Source: Candidatus Omnitrophota bacterium (GTDB lineage: Bacteria; Omnitrophota; Gorgyraeia; 1-14-0-20-64-10). From it: 45,815 nt of DNA. Under the pieces are notes generated by a model. The model saw nothing but the letters and a program-made list of their open reading frames with translations. It was not told where the DNA came from and did not search any database. The DNA lies in contig JAHFFE010000010.1 of NCBI GenBank assembly GCA_023248155.1, positions 1 through 45,815 of the forward strand, written 5' to 3'. This document shows, one piece after another, positions 27,234 through 40,069 of the stretch (positions are counted from its first letter, which is position 1; the number at the start of each line of letters is the position of its first letter). The position numbers and the translations under genes are program-made.

Positions 27234-27262
27234 ATCGTAGCAAATGACGGGTTTACTGTCTA
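27234..27262 (-). promoter_or_regulatory. Candidate promoter of gatCAB
   Basis: TAGACA and TACGAT, 17 bp apart on the minus strand, with the -35 overlapping the stop codon of the giant gene. The -10 ends 6 bp before the ATG at 27227, which would make the transcript leaderless. The -10 match is mediocre. Confidence 0.4.
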
Positions 27263-30200
27263 CGCGGCTGTATCGGTGGCGACGGCCTGTACCCACTCCT
27301 GATAAGTTCGTTCATCTACCGGCGCAATGCCGAGGAATTTGCCCAAACCCTCCAAATCGCTCGGCATCTGAATCACATAGGTGCCTATTTCTCTCTGCCA
27401 GGCAGAAAGCTGAATATCAACCACCACATCTTGCCACTTTTTATCAGAGGTTTCCGACAAAATAGTCCATTGGGCGGTTACTGTATTAGGCAACAACGAT
27501 TCTATGGCTTGTTTTTGTTCCAGATCATCCACGATAATCGCCACCGGGATTTTTTCTCCCTGGTACGGCTTAAACAGATGTAGTACGCGGGCTGACTCTA
27601 CCGCCATATCCGGCGTAAGAATCAATAGTCTCTGTTGGCTGGCAATTACGCCAACCGGTTTAAACAACCGCTGCCCTTCTTCCAAACCACTGGTAGCGGG
27701 CTGGCGGGCTCCCAACGAAACGGGCTGTCGCTTCACGGCCTTTTCCAGCATGGCAATCCGATCAGTCTCGGTCAGGAAGTTTTCATCATGAAACCCCTGG
27801 ATTAATGCCAGCGCATTTTTCCCCGGGGTTAGAGCGCTCTGACCGTCAGCCGTACTCCGCAAATAAACATGAACCTGATTCATGTCCTGACCGGCGGTCT
27901 TCCGCACATAATTCAACACCCACTCGGCCGCGGTCCGGTCACGGCCCGGCGTAGCCTTTCCGGGCTGCAAACCGGTTTCTCGGAATTTTTCAAACAGATA
28001 GAACCAAAAGAATGCCTCGGCAAAATCGTCGCGCTGTTCCTGTACTAACCGGCTCATTAAATCAACCGCTCCCTGCGTTTGGCCTGAAATTTCCACCAAA
28101 TCATTCATACTCCTGGGTTCATTACGAACCTTCTCGGGGTTCCAAACCGTCTGATCCAACGGCGAATTCGGGCGAATGACCGCCTCGGTGACAAAATGCT
28201 TCTGAAAAGCATCCAGCTCCGGCCGACTAAAAACATCGCTAAAAAAATAGGCGGCCCAGAGATAATCCCGGGCATGGTTAAGCTCCTCATCCCGCGATAC
28301 CTGCTCCCCAAAATAATTCAGAAAAAGTTCCGTTTGCCCCTCATACAAAGACCGGACCAAAGCAATCGCTTCCAGTGGAATCCCATAACTTTTCGCCTGC
28401 GCAAGAAATTCCCTGTAGTCAAATTCAACTTGTGATCGAGCTTGTCCCGGATCATATGCGCTGATGTTTCTAAAAGCCCACCCGCGCACAAAACCCGACG
28501 GTTCCTTTTGTTTCAACTGGGTTTGCAACCGGGTCTCCCAGGTAAATGCCCGGCCATCCAAGTAAGGAACTTGCTTCCAGGGACGTTCTATCGTGGCGTA
28601 GGTAATCAAATTTACCACTGGAGCAAAAATGAATTCAGCCCCCGCCCTCTGATATAACTGATAGTGAAGCATCTCTACTAAGGCGGTAAATTTTTTCAGG
28701 TCCAAAAGACCGCGGTAAGAATCCAGGCCGGGAATACCCGGATAAACCTGCGCGATCCGATCGACAATATTGGAATCTGCTGTCTGTAACGAGTACCCTT
28801 TCGCTAGGGTCTCCTTATATTTCTCAAACAAAAACTCCGCCAAGGATCTTAACTCGGATTCCGGAACTTGAATCGCCCAGGGAGGATTGTTCGGAGCAAT
28901 CATCTGTTGGGGAGCAGACGGTATTAGAGGAACCCATGAAGTACTTGTTTCTTTAATAAGAATCATGTCGTTTACCGCGGGGTCGAACCGGAGCGCGCGC
29001 CGTTCTTCCAAACCGGCGGAGGTAACCTGCTTAAACCATTTTTGGATGGAATCGGCCGCCTCCAGAGAAGGCTTTAGCAATGCCGAATCAAATTGTTTAA
29101 CTTCTGCTGCCTCCGGCAAAATAATCTCACGAAACGGCAGAGCCATAAACTGGTTAAAGAATCCCCTAGACCAGGATTTCCATTCCGTATGATTCCCGAA
29201 AATCAGATCCCAGTTGCGCGTCTGTTGTAAATGTTCCTGATTGTTCAGCCAAACCACCGCTTCCAACGGAACAAACCCTGGCCGTTCCTGCAATTGAGTT
29301 TCATAACGGATCGCTCCGCCCGAATCTTCGTCTTCAACACGAACCGCATTCGACAACGGAAGGCGGGTCTTTAAGGAAGAAAGTTTGTTCACATTTTCCG
29401 GCGGCAATCCGGCGTAAAAACGGCTTCCGATTTTAACGACCAAAACCCAGTCATCGACGCGATACTCCCACGCGGCAGAGTCTCCAGGGCTGGAATATCC
29501 CCGTTCTGGATCTCCGGCAGCGACCGCGCTCAATAATGACTTGCCGGTGCCGGGAGCGCCCAGCACAACGATCGCTTTTCCGCTCTGTTTATGGACCAGT
29601 AAATCGGCATGCATTCGATAAGCGCTCATTCCGCGCGGACGCTTGGGAAGCTGGTCCAGCTTGGCATAAACATTCTCTTTGTCGGCAATTGCACCGTCTT
29701 CATCGTCGCTGACCGCCTGCAAGAAATTCGCCCAGGTTCCGCCGCGTGAAAAAGTGCCCTGCCTGTTGCCAAAATAGGTCCGAAATAAATCCGGCGCTGC
29801 GTACAACGCGTTGAGCCCGTCAATAATGGGATCACCCGACTCTTCCAAACCGCCTGCTTTTTCAGACGACTTTGGAGCGGCGGTAGGTTTCGGGATATAC
29901 TCGTCGGCCCAGTTTCGAATGTAGGCCATTCGACCATCTCCCGTTAATATTCCCCATATCTGAGCAAAATCCCAACCACGGTAATAGTTGATTAGCGTTC
30001 CTATTCTTACCGTTGTTTCATGCCATGTCGCGTTCTCATCGTTCTTGAATTTTCCCAATTGGCTCTTTAAACCCTTGTCCAGCAAAGCGACATTGACCTG
30101 CCACTCCCCGTGATCGGCAGCCCATGTCCAAACACGCTCCGGGCGCCTCTCGATCGTAACCCCCAAAATCGAGAATAAATCCGGTATCTGATTCGGACCT

Positions 30201-33200
30201 TGCTGAACCGCCTCGGCCACAAACAACTCATCCAGACGCCCGGCAGACGACAACTCCCCCATTAGCTGAGATTCTTTACGGTTTGGATAAACCGTCCGAT
30301 AGAGCGTTAGCAACGACCGGCGTGTCAGGATCATCTCAACAACGAAAACTCTGACCCGCGGCTCTCGAATCTCTCTGGCCGCTTTTGTGCTGGATCCTCC
30401 ATTGGTAGAACGTTTTACCCCTTTTTCTACGGTCTCTTTGGCTTTTTTAATTGCCTTTTGAATATCAGTAGCAACGTCTGCCGACCTCCCTACTAAATCT
30501 GCCAGACTGGAAATCTGCACGACTGGAAGAATTGACGTTCGCAAAACCCCTTCAATAATGTCACGAATCTGCGCATCTGTTGCGCCCAACGCAATGGTAT
30601 CGCTTGGACCAAGACCTTGGTCATGCGCTTGAATCGCGGCAACCAACGCGTTAACCAAATCCTCTTGTGAAACGGATGCCGGAATAGAAGCTCTTGGGCC
30701 AGTGGCGCCTTCCATAAAATCATTATCCCGATGCAGTTGTTCCAGGTGGGTAATAAAAGAAGCATCGCCCAGCAACCGAATTAATTGGTCTCGATCCACC
30801 GATCTCAAAAGCAAAGAGAGCAAACTCGCGCGATAAGAACCGGGATAGTCCTCTTCGGCCAACGACCGATGAAGCGCTTTCCACGGAATAGAAGCCCGCG
30901 CCTGTGAAATCACCCATTGCTCAAGATCCCATCGAATGAGCCCGTTCAAAAGATCGGCCAACAAACGGCTGCCTTCCTGCTGTTCCCTATCTCTCTCTGT
31001 CAAAGTCGTAGCGGCCAATGCATCCGGATCCGCCAATTCTAAGAAGGTTCCCCAATCCGAAATAGATTCAATGTTTCCTTGCGCGTGAATCCGGTCCGGT
31101 AGCGAAACGTCGGCATGTTTCCAAACCGGAGGAGATGGCTCATCCACTGCCGAGTCTGTCGTCATTTCGAGGCCATCCGGCTGAGAAATCTTGCCTCCCA
31201 GAACGAGATCTCTCGCGGTTTCACCGCTCGAGATGACAGAAGTAGCTGTCGAGCTCGAGATGACATCGTTCGCCGATTGCCCGGAAGAATCGGTCGCCGA
31301 GTCATCCGATGTTAACGTCTTGGAATCATCCACGCCGGTTTCCGCTTCCTTACGTGCAAGATCCAGTCTTGCCTGTGCATCTGCAAGACTGCCTTTTTTT
31401 ATTTTTGTTACAGGAGTCGAGGCAATTCTGTTTCCCAACTCCCAGAACCATCGGCCATGCTTAGCCAATGCAGGGCTCTGCGCATAATAACCAAACGAAA
31501 TCCAAACATCTTCATTCTTAAGAAAAGCAATCAGGGCTTGAGGTGTCCACCCCTTCGGAACTACGATGACGGAGTCTCGAATCTCCGGATGGTCCGCGGC
31601 ATGTACATGCCACCACTGATTCGCCAGATAAAACATCAGGAATTTAGCCCCGTATTGAGTCCTTTGATCGTTTGCCGCCCTTTGAAAATATTTGGCAATA
31701 AAAGCCTGCAGATTTTCTCTCGCTTCAAGCGTTGCGAGAATCGTCCGAGTAAATGCCCGGTGACGGCCACTCGTAAACAGCTCCGGAGACTCTTCGAAAA
31801 GAGTGGGACCGGATTCTGGTTTCTCCATGAGATCCAAATCCTTATCGGTAACCTGTTTCAAATCTATTTCAACCACCCGCACAGGAGCATTTAAATTCAC
31901 CGGAGGTTTTTGGAGCACAGAATACAACGGAAAACCAGAATGACCGGTGGTAAAAAACATGGGGGCAGCTCTTTTGGATGGAGGATGTTGCTCTTTCATG
32001 GAAGAAACCGGCGTGGCGCAGCACCGTACTGCCAGCAAGAACGCCCTTCGATTTTCAGAGAGAGAGTCCCATGTTTGTTCAGGATATTTCTCCCAATGAG
32101 TGCGGAAATGCTGCTGCATAGAGCCAACATCAACCCCTTCCGGAAAATAGAGTCGATCCATTTTTGAGGAATCGGAGACGCCACGCGCGATATAATAAGC
32201 CGAATTGGCGCCGAGTATGACCAGTATCTGCAGAACAGCGCGCGCGTTGTCGTCGCCATTAATCCAATTGGGCGACGTCTCTACTACTTTAAGCAATCTG
32301 TTATATTCCCCGCCGATCTCACCTACGCCCGGAAGAAACCGAATAATGGTCAATGGCAGCGCCTTGGGATTAACCGAAGGAACGGTTTCTACCATTTTTT
32401 TTGTCGGCGTAACCGCCAGCCGCATTGAAACCTCGTAACTACCGGCCGATTTTGAAGCTCCCGCTTCAGAAAGTACCTCAGTCAATCCGGGTTCCGATGC
32501 TATTTGTTCACGCAAAATTTTCTGAAGATCCACCAGATCCATTCCTTCCGGAAGATTGAGCTCGTTTATGGCAAGAGGGTCCAACCCGGATTTTCCAGCT
32601 GCGTTAAGTCCAATAACAATACCCATCTCCACCCTGTTACTTGCTTTTGAATCCGAACGAAGGGTTGGGGTCACTCGAAGCGCTATTTCCTTAGAGGCTT
32701 GATGCCATGTTCCTAGGGGACTTTCCCCAATTCGATAGCGCCGAATGAGCAGAATGGGCGCATCCGTGTTAATGGGCGGAACCAATGCTGCGGCTTCCAC
32801 CATTTTACCCACCGGCGTAGTGGCCAAACGGATTACAAATGGAAGAACTTCCGGTTTTCCAGGAATTGTAGAGGCATCGAGAAATTCAGGGGTCGATTGC
32901 ATATATGAACGCAACTGGTCCTGAAAAACCGTCTTATTCATTCCTTCCGGAAAATAGACTTCTCTTATTTCAAGAGGTTCTATTCTCCCTTCGACAGACA
33001 TCGAGTTAATCCCCAGCAATACACTGATTTGGGCCAGCTGTCTTAATTCTGCATCCGTGATGTCCGGACCATGGATCACCTGCTTTGCCAGTTTCAGAGT
33101 CCGATCAAATTGCTGTTGATATTGCTGCCCTATTTTCCCTTCTCCCGGTTTAAAGCGGCGGATCACTAGCCGCCGTGCATCCACGTTAATCGGCGGAACC

Positions 33201-34636
33201 GAGGCTCCCACCATTTTTTCAACGGGTGTAGAAATAACCCGCGTAAAAAATGCCACGGAATACGCGGTAGTTGGACCTCTCTTTTGAGGGCTCCTAGCCC
33301 ACTCGAACCGGAAGGAGTCCTGGAGAGCCTGCAAAATAACGCCCTCGGGCAGATAGATCCATTGAATCTGCTCCGCATCCGTAACATCTCCCAGATATTG
33401 TTTGTTGAAAACAGCCAATAAAACAACCTGGGCAAGTCTTGGCGATTCAACCGCTGTTTCGAGAGAATTTCCCAGTACAGAGGCGATCGTGTTATAGGTT
33501 TCCCCTACGGGGCCTACTCCGGGCGTAAAACGGCGAATGACCAGTTCCTGAGCACCCGGATTAATCTCTGGAACCCTGAGAAATTCCGAATCAGCATCTG
33601 CATCAGCATTAATCGGTGGAAGAGGAACCGTTTGCGCAGAACTTGATCCTACAATGGTAGTTTCCCCTGACCCCACGATGGCTGTTTCCGCCGGCGGCTG
33701 GCGGATAAGACCGGGGTTTTCATCCAGCGTGATTTTTTCCACCGGTGTCCGGGCAACCTGGTCAAATAACGCGAAAAACCATGGATGCTCATCTACGGCA
33801 GCCATTCCCCATTCCTGCCGAACGAATCTTTTCAAGTCGGCCGGACTAAAACCGGACGGAACATAGACCACATTTGGCCCGGGGTTGGAGTCGGCCCAGA
33901 GCGAACCTTCGGGGCCATGCCGATACCAACCGTTGAGAGCGAGCAAACTTCGGTATGGGGTCAATGCGCTCAATGAGATTTTTGGCGATCTGACCAGATG
34001 CCGCACAGCTGTATTGAAATGATGATGATTGCCGGAAATTAATGCGGCGAAAGCTCTTCGAAGAGGATCTCTTTTTTCCGGAGTGGAAGTTGGGTCAATG
34101 ACTCCAAGCCATTCACGCTCATTAATATAGCGCAAAGAGTCTTCCCTCATCCGGTCCAATTCTGCGTCGGTGAGCTTTTCGGAATCCAAAACCACCAATC
34201 GAATCGGCACACGGTCAGGGTTTTCTGGCGGAATCGGCTGAACTTCAACCCGAGCGATCCTAGTGATAATCGCCTTACCGCCTTTCTCTGTCCAGCGCGG
34301 AACAATAACCCAAAAAGGAACCACGACATGCTCAAGATATTTACTCAACTTGTCCGGATCGGGGGCTTCGATCACGCCGTTTTTGGTTTCCAATCCATAT
34401 AAAGCCGGAGAAGGATTCTCTAATGCGGCAGGTTTCTCTTCCAGACTGGAAGAAGCGGAATTTTGGCGAAGCCGGTTGCTTAACTCATCCTTGGCCGCCG
34501 GTGATTCTTCCAAACCAGTCGGACGCAAAGCGTGGGCATACGAAGGCGAAAACACCATGCTAACGATCAGCAAAGCGCTTAAAATTCTGGAAAATAAAAA
34601 CCGCCTCTCGACGGTAATCTTATTGTGGCTTCTCAT
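27260..34636 (-). CDS. Giant exported GLEE-motif protein with tandem modules and an HprK-like P-loop
   Basis: No named family recognised. With the ATG at 34636 the protein has 2458 residues. It opens with a signal peptide (1-36, ending YAHA) and LRPTGLEES. Six related modules follow, each about 105-170 residues: an IRRF-type strand (near 150, 364, 487, 627, 761, 918), a YFPEG/YVPSG turn in most, and a closing TPV(E/G/T)KM-type motif (near 296, 469, 606, 742, 874, 1071). Residues about 1125-1159 come from a hairpin repeat. A helical part leads to an HPr-kinase-like nucleotide site (GAPGTGKS 1693-1700, VDDW 1727-1730). Exact GLEE tetrapeptides start at 41, 1596, 1875 and 2317, near apparent domain borders. 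The start was chosen by alignment with the paralogue at 38426-40069. An ATP site in an exported protein is odd. Confidence 0.85.
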   Translation of the reverse strand: MRSHNKITVERRFLFSRILSALLIVSMVFSPSYAHALRPTGLEESPAAKDELSNRLRQNSASSSLEEKPAALENPSPALYGLETKNGVIEAPDPDKLSKYLEHVVVPFWVIVPRWTEKGGKAIITRIARVEVQPIPPENPDRVPIRLVVLDSEKLTDAELDRMREDSLRYINEREWLGVIDPTSTPEKRDPLRRAFAALISGNHHHFNTAVRHLVRSPKISLSALTPYRSLLALNGWYRHGPEGSLWADSNPGPNVVYVPSGFSPADLKRFVRQEWGMAAVDEHPWFFALFDQVARTPVEKITLDENPGLIRQPPAETAIVGSGETTIVGSSSAQTVPLPPINADADADSEFLRVPEINPGAQELVIRRFTPGVGPVGETYNTIASVLGNSLETAVESPRLAQVVLLAVFNKQYLGDVTDAEQIQWIYLPEGVILQALQDSFRFEWARSPQKRGPTTAYSVAFFTRVISTPVEKMVGASVPPINVDARRLVIRRFKPGEGKIGQQYQQQFDRTLKLAKQVIHGPDITDAELRQLAQISVLLGINSMSVEGRIEPLEIREVYFPEGMNKTVFQDQLRSYMQSTPEFLDASTIPGKPEVLPFVIRLATTPVGKMVEAAALVPPINTDAPILLIRRYRIGESPLGTWHQASKEIALRVTPTLRSDSKASNRVEMGIVIGLNAAGKSGLDPLAINELNLPEGMDLVDLQKILREQIASEPGLTEVLSEAGASKSAGSYEVSMRLAVTPTKKMVETVPSVNPKALPLTIIRFLPGVGEIGGEYNRLLKVVETSPNWINGDDNARAVLQILVILGANSAYYIARGVSDSSKMDRLYFPEGVDVGSMQQHFRTHWEKYPEQTWDSLSENRRAFLLAVRCCATPVSSMKEQHPPSKRAAPMFFTTGHSGFPLYSVLQKPPVNLNAPVRVVEIDLKQVTDKDLDLMEKPESGPTLFEESPELFTSGRHRAFTRTILATLEARENLQAFIAKYFQRAANDQRTQYGAKFLMFYLANQWWHVHAADHPEIRDSVIVVPKGWTPQALIAFLKNEDVWISFGYYAQSPALAKHGRWFWELGNRIASTPVTKIKKGSLADAQARLDLARKEAETGVDDSKTLTSDDSATDSSGQSANDVISSSTATSVISSGETARDLVLGGKISQPDGLEMTTDSAVDEPSPPVWKHADVSLPDRIHAQGNIESISDWGTFLELADPDALAATTLTERDREQQEGSRLLADLLNGLIRWDLEQWVISQARASIPWKALHRSLAEEDYPGSYRASLLSLLLRSVDRDQLIRLLGDASFITHLEQLHRDNDFMEGATGPRASIPASVSQEDLVNALVAAIQAHDQGLGPSDTIALGATDAQIRDIIEGVLRTSILPVVQISSLADLVGRSADVATDIQKAIKKAKETVEKGVKRSTNGGSSTKAAREIREPRVRVFVVEMILTRRSLLTLYRTVYPNRKESQLMGELSSAGRLDELFVAEAVQQGPNQIPDLFSILGVTIERRPERVWTWAADHGEWQVNVALLDKGLKSQLGKFKNDENATWHETTVRIGTLINYYRGWDFAQIWGILTGDGRMAYIRNWADEYIPKPTAAPKSSEKAGGLEESGDPIIDGLNALYAAPDLFRTYFGNRQGTFSRGGTWANFLQAVSDDEDGAIADKENVYAKLDQLPKRPRGMSAYRMHADLLVHKQSGKAIVVLGAPGTGKSLLSAVAAGDPERGYSSPGDSAAWEYRVDDWVLVVKIGSRFYAGLPPENVNKLSSLKTRLPLSNAVRVEDEDSGGAIRYETQLQERPGFVPLEAVVWLNNQEHLQQTRNWDLIFGNHTEWKSWSRGFFNQFMALPFREIILPEAAEVKQFDSALLKPSLEAADSIQKWFKQVTSAGLEERRALRFDPAVNDMILIKETSTSWVPLIPSAPQQMIAPNNPPWAIQVPESELRSLAEFLFEKYKETLAKGYSLQTADSNIVDRIAQVYPGIPGLDSYRGLLDLKKFTALVEMLHYQLYQRAGAEFIFAPVVNLITYATIERPWKQVPYLDGRAFTWETRLQTQLKQKEPSGFVRGWAFRNISAYDPGQARSQVEFDYREFLAQAKSYGIPLEAIALVRSLYEGQTELFLNYFGEQVSRDEELNHARDYLWAAYFFSDVFSRPELDAFQKHFVTEAVIRPNSPLDQTVWNPEKVRNEPRSMNDLVEISGQTQGAVDLMSRLVQEQRDDFAEAFFWFYLFEKFRETGLQPGKATPGRDRTAAEWVLNYVRKTAGQDMNQVHVYLRSTADGQSALTPGKNALALIQGFHDENFLTETDRIAMLEKAVKRQPVSLGARQPATSGLEEGQRLFKPVGVIASQQRLLILTPDMAVESARVLHLFKPYQGEKIPVAIIVDDLEQKQAIESLLPNTVTAQWTILSETSDKKWQDVVVDIQLSAWQREIGTYVIQMPSDLEGLGKFLGIAPVDERTYQEWVQAVATDTAA
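31161..31264. repeat. GTCAT-family hairpin repeats inside the giant gene
   Basis: One plus-strand copy GTC-ATTTC...GAAAT-CTT (from 31161) faces a minus-strand copy GTC-ATCTC...GAGAT-CT (ending 31237), and a half copy, GTCATCTCGAG on the minus strand, follows at 31254-31264. The stems ATTTC/GAAAT and ATCTC/GAGAT covary. The whole block is translated without a stop codon (about residues 1125-1159), between the module array and the helical region. Confidence 0.8.
34591..34614 (-). terminator. Terminator-like hairpin within the giant gene's signal-peptide codons
   Basis: The minus strand reads CCGUC-GAGA-GGCGG followed by UUUUUAUUUU: a 5-bp stem (one G-U pair), tetraloop and U-tract at +23 to +46 from the ATG. 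The paralogue at 40024-40047 has the same structure at the same offset. It encodes V-E-R-R-F-L-F. An attenuator role is an inference. Confidence 0.55.
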
Positions 34637-34650
34637 CGGGTTATAAACAA

Positions 34651-34679
34651 AGTATCTCACGCCGGATTAAGAATATCAA
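34651..34679 (-). promoter_or_regulatory. Promoter of the giant GLEE gene
   Basis: TTGATA and GATACT, 17 bp apart on the minus strand. The -10 ends 14 bp before the ATG, so the leader should be about 8 bases; no Shine-Dalgarno sequence is present. Spacing and -10 equal those of the paralogue's promoter (40078-40106). Confidence 0.7.
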
Positions 34680-34707
34680 TGCTAAATAATGTAGATTTTT
34701 ATTTCTA

Positions 34708-35553
34708 TTAATACTTCAGCGCGCGGGACAAACCGACGAATTCTTCGAGAGAGAGCGTTTCGCAGCGGCGGATCGGATCAATCTTCAGCGCGGCCAGCGC
34801 GGCAACCACTTGTTCTTTTTCAAAACCGAGATCGCTCATCAGCAGCGAGTTCTGCAGCGTTTTGCGCCGGTGCATGAAGACGCGGCGCACCAGCCGGATA
34901 ATTCTTTCTTCTTCTTCCAAAGGAACTGCCGGCTTGGCCAGCGGCTCCAAACGGATTACCGCCGATGTCACTTTTGGTTTTGGGTAAAAAGAAGTGGGAG
35001 GAATCAAAAAAGCAATCGACGGCGTGAACGCCAGCCGCGTCGTGATCGAAAGACTGGAGCATTCTTTTCCGCCCGGCCCGGCCACCATCCGCTCGGCGAC
35101 TTCTTTCTGGATCATCAGAACCGCGCGCCGGACCCACCGGCGGTTGGCCAGTAAAAATTCGAGGATCGGACCGGTCAGCGAATAAGGCAGATTGCCGACA
35201 ACCCAGAGCGATTTTTCCTCACCCATCGCGTAGGAACCCATATCCATTTTAAGAATGTCGGAGCGAACCAGCTGCAGATTGTCGCGGCTCTTAAAACGAT
35301 CCGTCAACACTTCCAAGAATTTCGAATCGCGTTCGACGGCGTAGACCGTAGCGCCCGTATCGAGCAGCGGCTCGGTCAAGGAACCGAGACCTGCACCGAT
35401 CTCAAAGATTTTGTCCGTGGGGCCCGCAGGAACTTCGGCGGCGATGCGCGAAAGCGATGGGCCATCGACCAGAAAATGCTGGCCCAGCCGCTGGCGGGAA
35501 AGCGCCAGACGGTACTGGCGCATCAGACCTTTAATATCAAATGTTTTCAGCAT
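34708..35553 (-). CDS. ksgA: 16S rRNA adenine dimethyltransferase KsgA (RsmA)
   Basis: Dimethylates two adjacent adenines near the 3' end of 16S rRNA late in 30S assembly. The 281 residues contain RLGQHFLVD, the AdoMet loop IFEIGAGLGSLT (49-60), the catalytic NLPYSLTGPIL (121-131) and FYPKPKVTSAVIRL. Its start overlaps the pdxA stop by 7 bp. The order surA-pdxA-ksgA matches the well-known Escherichia coli arrangement. The giant GLEE gene begins 71 bp downstream with its own promoter. Confidence 0.96.
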   Translation of the reverse strand: MLKTFDIKGLMRQYRLALSRQRLGQHFLVDGPSLSRIAAEVPAGPTDKIFEIGAGLGSLTEPLLDTGATVYAVERDSKFLEVLTDRFKSRDNLQLVRSDILKMDMGSYAMGEEKSLWVVGNLPYSLTGPILEFLLANRRWVRRAVLMIQKEVAERMVAGPGGKECSSLSITTRLAFTPSIAFLIPPTSFYPKPKVTSAVIRLEPLAKPAVPLEEEERIIRLVRRVFMHRRKTLQNSLLMSDLGFEKEQVVAALAALKIDPIRRCETLSLEEFVGLSRALKY

Positions 35554-36482
35554 TGTTTTCGGTTCCCTGCCAGTTGAAGCGCCAATGCGACCGCCGCGCG
35601 CATTGATCGGGGATCGGCTTTCCCTTTTCCGGCGATATCAAACGCGGTGCCATGCACCGGCGACGTCCGCACAAACGGAAGCCCCAGCGTCACATTGACC
35701 GCCTGATCCCATCCCAGCAGTTTAACCGGAATCAGCGCCTGATCGTGATAAACAGCGACCACGGCGTCGTACAATCCGGCAGCGGCCTGCTTCATCAGCG
35801 TATCAACCGGCAACGGCCCGGCCGCTTTCTTAAACGCGCGGACAGCCGGCAAAAGAATTTTCTTTTCTTCATCGCCAAACATTCCATTCTCGCCGGCGTG
35901 CGGATTCAATGAAGCGAGCGCCAGCCGGGGCCGGGCAATGCCCAGATCGCGCCGGACAAATTCAAATGTGTCGTTAAGAACGCGAACCGTTTCGGCTTTG
36001 CTTAAATGGCGCGCAATGTTGCGAATTGAGTGGTGCGTCGTCAAAAGACTAACCCGGAATTTTCCGGTGACGAACATCATTGTGGTTTTTCGATGAAACT
36101 TCTCAGCCAGAAATTCGGTATGCCCGATAAATGAAACTCCGGTACGCGCAATTGCCTCCTTGGAAACCGGCGCCGTCACCAGCGCATCGGCTTCGCCTGC
36201 TCTGATCCGCCGGACCGCTTCCATGAGATATGCGAATGCAGCCCTGCCGGAAGTCAATGGGCCCATATCGATCCATTGGAAACGATCCCAGCGAATGGAA
36301 ATATGCAGCGACCGGGCGAGATTACGCAAAAGAGTCAGGTCACCGATCACGGCAACAGGATTAGTCCCGCGGAAAACAGCAAGCGTTTTGAGGGTGACTT
36401 CGGGGCCGATACCGGCAGGATCGCCGATCGTCACCAGCAAACGGGGAGAACCCCCGCGTTTACTTGATTGTGATGTAGGCAT
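35547..36482 (-). CDS. pdxA: 4-hydroxythreonine-4-phosphate dehydrogenase PdxA
   Basis: NAD-dependent oxidation of 4-phosphohydroxy-L-threonine in the DXP-dependent route to pyridoxal 5'-phosphate. Motifs are LLVTIGDPAGIGPEVTLK at the N-terminus, GHTEFLAEKF (metal histidine), TTHHSIRNIARHL, NPHAGENGMFG and YHDQALIPVKLL. The start is uncertain: ATG at 36482 is given. A TTG at 36500 with AGGA 5 bp upstream would add six residues. Either start lies inside the end of the surA-like gene. Confidence 0.94.
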   Translation of the reverse strand: MPTSQSSKRGGSPRLLVTIGDPAGIGPEVTLKTLAVFRGTNPVAVIGDLTLLRNLARSLHISIRWDRFQWIDMGPLTSGRAAFAYLMEAVRRIRAGEADALVTAPVSKEAIARTGVSFIGHTEFLAEKFHRKTTMMFVTGKFRVSLLTTHHSIRNIARHLSKAETVRVLNDTFEFVRRDLGIARPRLALASLNPHAGENGMFGDEEKKILLPAVRAFKKAAGPLPVDTLMKQAAAGLYDAVVAVYHDQALIPVKLLGWDQAVNVTLGLPFVRTSPVHGTAFDIAGKGKADPRSMRAAVALALQLAGNRKQC

Positions 36483-37476
36483 CGGCGCGCAGGCGGGCAA
36501 TCCATTCCTTGTAGCGCGCCATCGTCTTTTCCTGATACAGATGACTTTGAATGTCGTTCTGGGCCTCGGTCAATGACGCCTGCTGGGCCGGACGGACGGC
36601 CTCGACCAGAAAAATCTGAAAACCGGCCGGCGTCTTAATGACCGGCGAAATTTTCCCGGCTTTCAGCGTGAATAGAACCTGCTCGATTTCTTTGCGTGTT
36701 CTTCCGCGCTCGATGAATCCGATGCGGCCGCCCATCTGCGCGTTGAACCCGTCGGAATATTTGCGCGCCGACTCGTAAAAATCAGCGCCCTTGCCCAGCT
36801 CTTTGTACAAATCCTGCGCCTGTGAATAAGCGCGCCCATAATCGGCATCATCTTTCGGGCGGATTAAAATGGTGGCTACCTGCAGCGCTTCGGGCGTTAT
36901 GAATTCATCTTTGTGGGCTTCGTAATAAGCGGTCACTTCAGTTGGAGAAACCGTGATGCGCGAACGGATATCCCGCCCGATTAATTTCTGAATCGTGAGC
37001 TGGTCTTTAAACCGCGCTTTTAAGTCTTCTTCGGTGAGCCCTTGCTGGCTGAGCAGTTCGCGGAACTCTTCCGGTTTTTCAAAACGGGATTTGGTGTCAT
37101 TCAGCATTTCCTGCACATCGGCGTCGGACACCGTAATCACCGGCGGCGTTCCGATTTTACCCTTGGACACTTCAATCGGCTGCGGATCACGCGCCAGCTG
37201 CAGCATGATATGTTCATCGATGATCTGTCCGAGAATTGATTTCCTGAGCTTCTCCATCTCTTTGGATAATTCTTCAGGGGCCAGCGTGGCCTGCATCTGG
37301 AAATAGGCCGGGACCAGCGCGCGGTTGAGTTCGGCCTGCGTGATCACTTCGTTATTCACAACAGCGACAATCCGGTTTTCATCTTCTTCGGAAGCGGCCG
37401 CAACCGGATGTGCTAACGCCAAAAAAACAAAAACCGCCCATAGACGCTGTATCGGCAATCCACGGACGGTTTTCAT
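36460..37476 (-). CDS. surA: SurA-like periplasmic peptidyl-prolyl isomerase
   Basis: A 338-residue exported foldase. It has a signal peptide (1-28, ending PVAAA), a SurA-type N-terminal chaperone domain (NRIVAVVNNEVITQAELNRA onward), and one parvulin domain (about 200-305, LQVATILIRPKDDADYGRA...). E. coli SurA has two parvulin domains, so this is a shorter form. The open frame runs upstream, but MKTVRGLPIQRL at 37476 gives a proper signal peptide. Position directly before pdxA-ksgA supports the SurA assignment. It probably serves outer-membrane protein transport. Confidence 0.85.
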   Translation of the reverse strand: MKTVRGLPIQRLWAVFVFLALAHPVAAASEEDENRIVAVVNNEVITQAELNRALVPAYFQMQATLAPEELSKEMEKLRKSILGQIIDEHIMLQLARDPQPIEVSKGKIGTPPVITVSDADVQEMLNDTKSRFEKPEEFRELLSQQGLTEEDLKARFKDQLTIQKLIGRDIRSRITVSPTEVTAYYEAHKDEFITPEALQVATILIRPKDDADYGRAYSQAQDLYKELGKGADFYESARKYSDGFNAQMGGRIGFIERGRTRKEIEQVLFTLKAGKISPVIKTPAGFQIFLVEAVRPAQQASLTEAQNDIQSHLYQEKTMARYKEWIARLRADAYITIK

Positions 37477-37495
37477 CGGAACAGAAATCCTGTTT

Positions 37496-38356
37496 TTACT
37501 TGCTGGACGCAGTAGCGGAAGCCGGGGCCGCATAGGGTCCCATCCGCTTGATCTGCGCCTTGGAACGAAGCTGCTGAACATAGCTCTCGGCAAACTTCTG
37601 GCTCTGCTGGGAAAGAATCGCCTGGCGGATCTGTTCTCTCACTTCATCCAGGGATTTCTCGCGCGCTTCGCGCCGCTCGGTCAAAAGAATCAGATGGTAA
37701 CCGAGCTGCGTTTTCACGATCTTGCTGACCTCGCCGACTTTCATCGACTGGCAGGCCTGCTCGAATTCGGGAATAACCTGCCCCTTCGAGAAATAACCGA
37801 TATCGCCGCCGCGCTGCTTGGACGGATCGGTCGACATTTCCTCGGCGACCTTCGCGAACGGCTCTCCCGACTTCAGGCGAGCCTGGGCCTGCTGAGCGGT
37901 TGCTTCGTCCGCCAGAAGAATATGGCTGGCGCGCAAGCTGGCCGGCACCGCGAAACTGGATCTGTTTTTTTCGTAAAACTGCGCGATTTGTTCATCGGGA
38001 ATAGAGGTTTTATCTTCCTTGCGCAACAGCTCGAACAGGCGGCCGAACAGGATCTGCTTGCGCGCGTCGTGCATTAAGCGGACCACTTCGGCATCGGATT
38101 CGAGCCGGCGCTTGCGGGCTTCCTGCATCAGCAGCGTTTCCATCACCAGCTGATCGAGCACCCTCGCCTTGTCATTGCCGATGGAATCGCGCACAGCCGG
38201 AGAAAGCGCGCTGAACCGATCGTCGATTTCCTTAACCGTGATCGTTTCACCGTTCACGATCGCGGCCGGTTTGGAACCGGCGCCGCAAGCGGAAAGAGCT
38301 GCACCCAGCACGGAAACTCCGAACAAAGCCATTACCAACCAAACTGTTTTCTTCAC
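37496..38356 (-). CDS. Lipoprotein parvulin-type peptidyl-prolyl isomerase
   Basis: A 286-residue foldase with a lipoprotein signal (lipobox LSAC, Cys24), a SurA/PrsA-type N-terminal helical domain (AAIVNGETITVKEIDDRF) and a parvulin domain (about 135-230, RASHILLADEAT...GGDIGYFSKGQVIPEFE). The start is the GTG at 38356, with AGGAG 8 bp upstream; the longer frame is not supported. It is 19 bp upstream of the SurA-like gene, so two parvulin foldases are made from one transcript. Confidence 0.92.
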   Translation of the reverse strand: MKKTVWLVMALFGVSVLGAALSACGAGSKPAAIVNGETITVKEIDDRFSALSPAVRDSIGNDKARVLDQLVMETLLMQEARKRRLESDAEVVRLMHDARKQILFGRLFELLRKEDKTSIPDEQIAQFYEKNRSSFAVPASLRASHILLADEATAQQAQARLKSGEPFAKVAEEMSTDPSKQRGGDIGYFSKGQVIPEFEQACQSMKVGEVSKIVKTQLGYHLILLTERREAREKSLDEVREQIRQAILSQQSQKFAESYVQQLRSKAQIKRMGPYAAPASATASSK

Positions 38357-38384
38357 GGATTCTTCTCCTCTGATGTATTTTCCT

Positions 38385-38413
38385 AGTTTAGCACGGAGAA
38401 AGAATCCCCTCAA
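38385..38413 (-). promoter_or_regulatory. Promoter of the foldase-pdxA-ksgA operon
   Basis: TTGAGG and TAAACT, 17 bp apart on the minus strand, between the second GLEE gene's stop and the GTG start. The leader would be about 22 bases and contains the AGGAG site. Confidence 0.6.
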
Positions 38414-38425
38414 GATGAGAAAATT

Positions 38426-40069
38426 TTATGCGGAGGTAATAACAGCGTAGAGTTTGTCGTTCAATTGAACGAACGTAATGGAGTTGATGTCCATGTCCGG
38501 CACGTTGCGATTGGCCAGCGACAATTCTGCCATGGCCCTTAGATTCTGCGCAACACGAGCTGCATCTCCTGAGAATAGCTGTTTGGCTTTTTCAGGGCTG
38601 ATGCGCACCGCAGCCCGCGGACTCACCTGCGGCAACCACAAACCAGGACTCTCTATAATTCCCGAAACTTCGTTGTTCAGAACCACCAGAACCTTTTCGG
38701 GATGCTTAGGACCTTGCTCTGACCAATAGGTCGAAACAGCTTCTAGATTATCGCTCAAGATATCAAAGCGGGTGTCCGGGGGCTGATTTTCGGGAGGAAG
38801 AATTCCAACCTGGAAGTAGGTCGTCGGCAATTCAGATTTCAGATTTACTTCCACAACCGCCACCGATGTTCCGTCAACTTGAGGAACAAACTCTCCAAGC
38901 TGATCAACCGCAATGGCCTGCTCCACCACCGTTCTCTCATCCGTCTTAGCAGTAACCGGATTGGCAGGCACAGTGAGTGTACGGCGTTCTTTAGCGAAAG
39001 AGGCGAGTTTTTCAGCGCGCGTAACGATTTGGTCTGCTAGCACGGGAGATTGAGCCCCTTCTGATATAATCTCTTCGATGACCGCGTCTCGCTGATGGGG
39101 TGCTGGATTCTCAAGTTGACCCCGCAGAAGCGCCATTGCCTTATAAGAAAGACCAAATTCCGCAGTAACACGACCCGCAGCAAAAAAAGCTTCTGCGGCT
39201 GTGAAACGCTTATCCCAAGAAGCCCACCTGAGAAGATCATTGACTAACTGGGCAATGGTATCAGCAGGCATTTCCAAATACCGTTGAAGAATTCCCGTTT
39301 CAAACTCTGGATGATGATAATTAGGAGACTCCCTTAGAAGCCGAATTGTTCTTTGAATAGCTGTTCCATCGACAATCTCAGGAACCACGAGCTCCTCCAA
39401 ACCGGATTGCTTGGCACCAACTAATGGTTTTACACTCTGAACAAAAGCCCACGCTGTTAAAAACGTTGAGTGCTTAAATCGATCTCCCATCTGCCGATGA
39501 GCTTCCTCCATCTCAGAAACCAAAGAGGGCTTCCGTAAAATATCTACACTATTTTTCGAAAGCCCCTCATCCGTGTAATGAAGAATCAGTAGCTCAGACA
39601 AAACTGTTGGCGCAATGCGGACAAAAAATTCCTGCTCGTCTGTTGGTAAATTCGCATCCTGTTGAATCTCATAAAGATCCCGCAGTCCATCCAGCGTCAG
39701 TCCGGCTTCTGCAAGCTTAAGACGATCCGAATGTTTCTCATAGACCATTTGAAGTCGCGCCATAGACGAAGCGGCTTGATCTCCGAACCATGCTGCTCGA
39801 AGAGCAGACGCAATGGAAACTAGAACTTGTAATCGACGCTCTATAACAGCAAACGATTGTTCTTCCAGACCACTGCCAATCATCTCTGGTTTACTTCGAA
39901 GCTTCTGGACGAGATCGGCTTTAGTAGCATTCGAGGATTCTTCTAGACCTGTGGAGCGCAACGCATAGACATGATGAGCTGGAAACGCGATGCTAATGAT
40001 CAGCAAAGCACTTAAGATGCGCATAAATAAAAACCGCCCTTGGGCGGAAACTAACTTATTGTTTTTCAT
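38426..40069 (-). CDS. Exported GLEE-motif protein, 547 residues, paralogue of the giant
   Basis: No named family recognised. The N-terminus MKNNKLVSAQGRFLF, ILSALLIIS core and YALRSTGLEES align without gaps with the giant protein's first 45 residues, and the 5' DNA is also very similar. GLEE tetrapeptides start at 41, 67 and 223. Between and after them lie mostly helical segments (about 75-210 and 230-380) and a C-terminal beta/alpha part (SVAVVEVNLKS onward) that resembles the VRVVEIDLK strand of the giant's last module. A cleaved signal peptide implies export. It stands upstream of the foldase operon, so together with the giant gene it brackets surA-pdxA-ksgA. Confidence 0.82.
   Translation of the reverse strand: MKNNKLVSAQGRFLFMRILSALLIISIAFPAHHVYALRSTGLEESSNATKADLVQKLRSKPEMIGSGLEEQSFAVIERRLQVLVSIASALRAAWFGDQAASSMARLQMVYEKHSDRLKLAEAGLTLDGLRDLYEIQQDANLPTDEQEFFVRIAPTVLSELLILHYTDEGLSKNSVDILRKPSLVSEMEEAHRQMGDRFKHSTFLTAWAFVQSVKPLVGAKQSGLEELVVPEIVDGTAIQRTIRLLRESPNYHHPEFETGILQRYLEMPADTIAQLVNDLLRWASWDKRFTAAEAFFAAGRVTAEFGLSYKAMALLRGQLENPAPHQRDAVIEEIISEGAQSPVLADQIVTRAEKLASFAKERRTLTVPANPVTAKTDERTVVEQAIAVDQLGEFVPQVDGTSVAVVEVNLKSELPTTYFQVGILPPENQPPDTRFDILSDNLEAVSTYWSEQGPKHPEKVLVVLNNEVSGIIESPGLWLPQVSPRAAVRISPEKAKQLFSGDAARVAQNLRAMAELSLANRNVPDMDINSITFVQLNDKLYAVITSA
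40024..40047 (-). terminator. Terminator-like hairpin within the second GLEE gene's signal-peptide codons
   Basis: The minus strand reads CCGCC-CAAG-GGCGG then UUUUUAUUUA: a 5-bp GC stem, tetraloop and U-tract at +23 to +46 from the ATG, the same offset as in the giant gene. By form it is a good intrinsic terminator, yet it lies in codons 8-16 of the reading frame. Confidence 0.6.

Follow-up and report, generated by a model that had tools for sequence, protein, structure and literature searches.

What is the role of a short peptide that recurs at the borders between the parts of exported proteins? The question was raised by a stretch of 45,815 nucleotides from Candidatus Omnitrophota bacterium (contig JAHFFE010000010.1; the whole stretch is called the window below), where two genes, P0001 and P0002, encode exported proteins that both carry the tetrapeptide GLEE. 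The window makes up contig 36 in a genome of 1.9 Mb that is 98.5% complete (G000). We find that P0001 and P0002 belong to a set of dozens of secreted polyproteins that this Omnitrophota order encodes, and that the true motif is [A/S/T]-G-[L/Q/A/M/F]-E-E, abbreviated GxEE. What we establish here is this motif and its strictness, its position at module borders, the exported class that bears it, its restriction to one lineage, and the shuffling of the modules that it delimits.

An earlier note, made from the letters of the window, had placed GLEE at residues 41, 1596, 1875 and 2317 of the giant protein P0001, and at residues 41, 67 and 223 of the 547-residue P0002. All seven copies are where it put them (residues of the giant are counted from the ATG at codon 9, and correspond to codons 49, 1604, 1883 and 2325 of the GTG frame), and no frame of the window has any further G[LAQMF]EE peptide. 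The common N-terminus that the note had seen in the two proteins was also recovered, with 48% identity over 72 residues. Finally, GGTTTGGAAGA, reported in each GLEE copy of the giant, occurs exactly four times in the window, always in the giant, for 0.05 expected. The 155 motif sites of G000 use 84 different DNA spellings, meaning that selection acts on the protein, and the DNA likeness of sites was 0.805 within a protein versus 0.785 between proteins, a value reached by 35 of 500 shuffles. Given the number of spellings genome-wide and the lack of a clear likeness within proteins, the four identical copies of GGTTTGGAAGA are a local coincidence, added to codon preference.

The earlier proposal supposed that GLEE is commoner than expected, and a strong enrichment was found. 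In the whole of G000, GGNYTNGARGAR gave 114 matches versus 28 for the backwards pattern. Stretches of G000 were then sampled in two sets, 20 chosen for GLEE plus the window, versus 20 not so chosen. In the first set, 31 exported open reading frames (ORFs) of at least 500 residues contained 130 matches to [ASTG]G[LAQMF]EE, versus 1 to the reversed pattern. GLEE itself was present in 60 copies in these exported ORFs, where its other anagrams averaged 1.1. In the set not chosen for GLEE, 7 motifs were found in 3 exported ORFs, and 3 in the 229 other ORFs (124 thousand residues); in large G000 proteins outside the exported class, motif frequency equals background. The tetrapeptide is real and enriched but too narrow, being one part of [AST]-G-[LQAMF]-E-E.

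The motif is strict. Exact copies number 143 in 33 polyproteins of G000, and 112 in 22 polyproteins of G001, a member of the same family. Near-misses (E to D or Q, G to A) did not exceed chance in either genome, except for 2 cases of G to A in G001, where 0.7 were expected; beside its 143 exact sites, G000 has no site with E to D at either glutamate, and none with G to A. Two peptides of the giant, SSLEEK and YGLETK, had been proposed as degenerate sites, a proposal left without support by near-miss forms that stay at chance level. The residue before G is A, S or T, rarely G, and the logo reads [P/A/S]-[A/S/T]-G-[L/Q/A/M]-E-E-[S/K/R/N], with little information outside. At the third position, G001 has L in 113 of its 117 sites, and G000 has L, Q, A, M or F. 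The motif is a short peptide within a variable, proline/alanine-rich linker. Its intolerance of substitution would be typical of a recognition peptide, rather than of a loose linker.

The distribution was followed by counting [AST]GLEE-coding DNA against a control, a count which in G000 misses the Q and A forms. The excess was clear in G000 (72 vs 10), G001 (203 vs 15), G002 (192 vs 19), G003 (92 vs 26), G005 (56 vs 15), G006 (21 vs 8), G007 (82 vs 19), G008 (79 vs 25), G009 (45 vs 7) and G010 (67 vs 9). In 28 genomes from other families, counts stayed near control. The motif is restricted to a single Omnitrophota order. Of 285 genomes of the phylum, 4 have the leader form LRP[TA]GLEE, and three of these belong to the family of G000. 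ALRPTGLEE matched 16 stretches of GTDB r220, and among those read, further motifs in the same ORF were found at only two Omnitrophota loci.

The N-terminus shared by P0001 and P0002 turned out to belong to a leader present on 48 ORFs of G000 and G001, the family elsewhere in the genome that the earlier note had asked about. It consists of a hydrophobic signal peptide (read from the sequence by eye), LR, 1 to 28 residues, GxEE, and then the first module; a second GxEE often follows 10 to 30 residues after the first. LR comes after the Ala of the signal-peptidase site in most leaders, and lies further downstream, yet kept, in others, so that it appears to be conserved in its own right. In L046:6836-6852, the frame runs through a copy of GGTGAGCCTGTCGAACC that separates signal peptide and LR (VHGEPVEP), and the leader of L039 has a similar-looking insert (VSLSNH); GGTGAGCCTGTCGAACC looks like an inserted short repeat element.

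Where do the internal motifs fall? As the earlier note had supposed, they lie between domains, and not inside recognised ones. In 13 polyproteins with Pfam domains, none of the 71 internal sites was inside such a domain, for 9.0 expected (P about 4×10−5); only the best Pfam stretches were used, and the domain coverage is thus a lower estimate. Blocks of homology between G000 and G001 polyproteins also begin at sites, eightfold above control: 31% of block starts were at most 10 residues from one, versus 4% (maximum 12.7%) for random positions, in pairs that are not independent.

The modules between the sites are varied, and often enzyme-like. Pfam recognised KDPG aldolase, transaldolase-like, PALP, HATPase, ARMT1-like, NAGPA, PP2C, alpha/beta-hydrolase, GNAT, ROK, WD40, FHA, M48, HEAT, GHMP kinase, NTP-transferase and PIG-L modules. 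The KDPG aldolase module of L040, set between SAGLEE and AGAEE, aligns to solved aldolases, with the EITFR and LKFFP segments (Glu, Lys) conserved. In L057, a single chain holds PP2C, hydrolase and GNAT segments, in which the motif residues DGH, GHSYGG and QGNGLG are recognisable by eye. Several of the module enzymes need cosubstrates that are normally intracellular; this may point either to delivery into some other cell, or to a role that is not understood.

Of the modules D1, D2 and D3 of P0001 (Table 1), D2 illustrates the shuffling. It is found in four G000 proteins: as the penultimate module of P0001, close to the C-terminal end of L113, within L041, and immediately after the leader in L053. 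Overall identity to P0001 is 22-44%, and G, E and E are invariant at both ends of the alignment. D2 also has invariant polar residues (EE..HA.D..WA and RP.S..D), and these suggest an uncharacterised enzyme or a metal site. Searches with D2 and D3 against PDB and Pfam gave nothing significant, and the match of D1 to PDB was not significant. D3 usually has the motif just before it. Many polyproteins end in similar short strand-like tails, such as YAVITSA, YAVLRSA, YLVLLSA and YLLIAA (window 38429-38600; L039, L040, L042, L052, L053), possibly a second C-terminal signal besides D3. One open frame, of at least 6666 codons, spans the whole of a 20-kb stretch (L043:2-19999, on G000:C25), with one DGLEE only.

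The earlier note had proposed a processing site or a docking tag, and this remains the leading pair, for a motif that is strict, lineage-specific and placed at borders. We prefer processing, because four traits look protease-like when taken together: strictness, placement at borders, a site that follows the signal peptide, and a small residue before G. A polyprotein consists of a Sec-type signal peptide, a short leader (LR...GxEE...GxEE), folded modules that are often enzyme-like, and a C-terminal module drawn from a small number of kinds. Its borders are marked by [AST]-G-[LQAMF]-E-E, which would be the recognition site of a dedicated and highly specific protease, acting in the periplasm, outside the cell or inside a target cell. 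The cut would fall within the linker, perhaps between G and the small residue before it, and would free the modules. Cleavage, the bond cut, the identity of the protease and release into a target cell are all steps that we infer here. We give even chances to the proposition that these secreted polyproteins are processed in trans at GxEE. A broader version, in which the whole order would run a secreted polyprotein economy, with dozens of giant precursors, one strict code, a dedicated secreted protease freeing the modules outside the cell or in a prey or host cell, and a code differing by genus (almost only L in G001; L, Q, A, M and F in G000), is put forward more tentatively, as somewhat less probable than that.

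A candidate protease was found beside some of the polyproteins. In G000 (C23), G001 (C11) and G005 (C91), the gene immediately downstream of a motif-bearing giant encodes a secreted subtilase (PF00082, family S8), with gaps of about 10 to 45 bases; in G008 (C55), the subtilase gene lies downstream of a D3 end. The four subtilases show a hydrophobic stretch at the N-terminus, a prodomain of the fervidolysin type and the segments of a complete Asp/His/Ser triad, with 44-49% identity to the G000 one. In a profile search of 39 genomes they scored above 1030 bits, versus 278 for the next S8 protein, the profile being built from the same four. Among the recurrent same-strand neighbours in the compared stretches, it was the only protease noticed. 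From its sequence and place, this S8 protein is the strongest candidate that we found, and would serve part of the order only; or else it may have another job in the same operon.

The giants of the subtilase operons (L049:2-11380 and L124:5160-20000) share 50% identity over about 2000 residues between two genera, and are far more conserved than other polyproteins. A separate cluster of four large S8 subtilase ORFs (1331-2176 residues) is found in G000:C13:60001-82000 (L183); no GxEE was seen in the three that were read.

As the sole general protease of the order, the S8 protein was rejected, being missing from motif-rich relatives. D2 was rejected in the same role, as G001 has more than 100 motifs yet no D2. 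No caspase-like C14 peptidase was detected in 25 genomes, in a search whose control was positive in Synechococcus. C80 (PF11713) had no match in 20 genomes, but the control genomes gave none either. The search for a protease covered these named families (S8, C14 and C80).

Several points weigh against processing at a border code. Some GLEE copies are inside D3 in G001, G002 and G003, and many modules are without a known fold, so that some borders cannot be judged. AlphaFold2 on single sequences gave mean confidence scores (pLDDT) of 41 and 34, which are uninformative and were not used. G004 is hardly enriched in [AST]GLEE DNA (21 vs 19 for the control). As for the candidate, in G006 a prodomain-only ORF stands at the place of the subtilase (L172:4301-4798), and profile searches did not find the S8 protein in G003, which is 95% complete and motif-rich, nor in G004, G007 and G009. 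Subtilisins are not known to be specific for [AST]-G-x-E-E.

The same motif could instead be an uncleaved docking tag: an exported or surface protein (an export chaperone, a scaffold or a surface hub) would bind [AST]GxEE in each linker, and the chains would be kept unfolded, arranged or anchored. Strictness and repetition at borders are explained nearly as well in this way as by processing, the LR and GxEE leader behind the signal peptide of 48 ORFs resembles a sorting tag, and two SurA-like peptidyl-prolyl isomerase (PPIase) genes adjoin the pair of the window. However, a partner family was not found, so short a motif would need avidity for binding, and PPIases are not recurrent beside other polyproteins in the compared stretches. 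We take docking as a serious alternative, though a rather unlikely one.

A structural linker or cap, in which the pentapeptide would simply be a favoured border structure such as a helix start and have no partner, agrees with sites placed at borders, within flanks rich in P, A and S. Such a cap should tolerate E/D and G/S/N exchanges, and none was above chance. The motif is moreover limited to one order though multi-domain proteins are universal, and is no commoner than background in those large proteins of the genome that do not belong to the class. This explanation appears improbable to us. An equally low probability is given to a fusion scar, where the polyproteins would be fused exported proteins, and the internal motifs relics of their LR...GxEE N-termini. 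D2 does come first after the leader in L053, and has an internal place in three other proteins, with the motif at the same distance. Relics would decay, however, while here G.EE is kept exactly at 22-44% module identity as its flanks diverge; near-miss forms are absent, and the internal sites are without the LR part. The earlier suggestion of a recombination seam, in which the motif-coding DNA would itself be conserved and used to shuffle modules, fits the GGTTTGGAAGA copies of the giant and modules that are indeed shuffled, but is refuted in its strict form by the 84 spellings among 155 sites and by a within-gene DNA similarity that is not significant, and is left with hardly any probability.

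In the window, the genes for KsgA, PdxA and the two SurA-like PPIases lie between P0001 and P0002, and a Mfd/helicase-type gene lies beyond. Neither P0001 nor P0002 had a significant match in Pfam, NCBIfam or PDB, or a recognisable family. A pattern scan found no P0002 homologue in GTDB r220 contigs, and BLAST found no internal repeats in residues 1-1200 of P0001. The features are listed in Table 1.

Table 1. Features of the two exported proteins of the window, and the conserved subtilase genes.
Feature	Position	Strand	Remark
P0001 gene, 2466-residue exported polyprotein	27260..34660	-	four border motifs
P0001 predicted signal peptide, residues 9-44 (...SPSYAHA)	34529..34636	-	sequence reading; same arrangement in 48 ORFs
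P0001 N-terminal module LRPTGLEESPAAKDELSNRLRQNSASSSLEEK	34433..34528	-	sequence comparison
P0001 GxEE site 1, T-GLEE-S	34505..34516	-	
P0001 GxEE site 2, G-GLEE-S	29840..29851	-	
P0001 module D1, residues 1608-1882, Walker-A-like GAPGTGKS	29015..29839	-	homologous module in G001
P0001 GxEE site 3, A-GLEE-R	29003..29014	-	same border keeps motif in four paralogues
P0001 module D2, about 440 residues (1883-2325), motif at both ends	27689..29002	-	
P0001 GxEE site 4, S-GLEE-G	27677..27688	-	
P0001 C-terminal module D3, about 140 residues	27263..27676	-	10 of 11 genomes of the order
P0002 gene, 547-residue exported protein	38426..40069	-	three border motifs
P0002 predicted signal peptide, residues 1-36	39962..40069	-	sequence reading
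P0002 N-terminal module LRSTGLEES...GSGLEE, short peptide flanked by two motifs	39857..39961	-	
P0002 GxEE site, T-GLEE-S	39938..39949	-	
P0002 GxEE site, S-GLEE-Q	39860..39871	-	
P0002 GxEE site, S-GLEE-L	39392..39403	-	
P0002 C-terminal module, residues 371-547, ends YAVITSA	38429..38959	-	54% identical to C-terminus of polyprotein G000:C20
Conserved secreted subtilase genes	L049:15177-17141, L124:3250-5139, L169:5420-7297, L170:328-2181		behind D3-bearing giant in three genera, D3 end in fourth

With a strict border code, the giant proteins of Omnitrophota, which are known and unexplained, can be parsed into modules; the code also predicts cut ends that metaproteomics can check. It further suggests a way for a bacterium whose genome is small, and whose life is suspected to depend on a host, to supply many enzymes while using few genes. 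Should cleavage be demonstrated, this would be a polyprotein system that extends over a whole bacterial genome, and its protease would have a new specificity.

How does it compare with known systems? A literature search found no description of this motif, and none joining Omnitrophota with polyproteins. Polyproteins cut in linkers are already known, from viruses and from MARTX toxins, and the present system is placed in no named family. LPXTG/sortase, PEP-CTERM/exosortase and the C-terminal domain of the type IX secretion system likewise mark many exported proteins within a genome by a short motif peculiar to the lineage. Those sorting tags are single C-terminal signals, whereas here the motif is repeated from one module border to the next, and one or two copies also follow the signal peptide. 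The C-termini of the polyproteins are without the arrangement of motif, transmembrane segment and basic tail of LPXTG and PEP-CTERM, and NCBIfam models had no match in the five polyproteins scanned. The giant ORFs of Omnitrophota, including the 39,678-residue protein of Velamenicoccus archaeovorus, come from the same phylum, and are also very large, with few annotated domains and an unexplained function; the passages found of that report describe no repeated border motif or polyproteins of enzyme modules (PMC10066038). Viral and eukaryotic polyproteins resemble those described here in one short consensus between folded products, conserved at the protein level, and are cut by a protease acting in trans or in cis; the present ones are bacterial and secreted, with many precursors per genome, and their cleavage is proposed from sequence. 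MARTX toxins are multi-effector secreted polyproteins cut in the linkers between effectors (PMC2900308). The likeness lies in a very large secreted chain with separate effector or enzyme modules, and in processing sites, proposed ones in the present case, that lie in the unstructured segments between them. No RTX-type Pfam match turned up in the polyproteins scanned, no search aimed at RTX being made. The system described here differs from MARTX by a strict GxEE consensus instead of a simple cut at Leu, by its dozens of genes, by its signal peptides, and by the cutting in trans that we propose.

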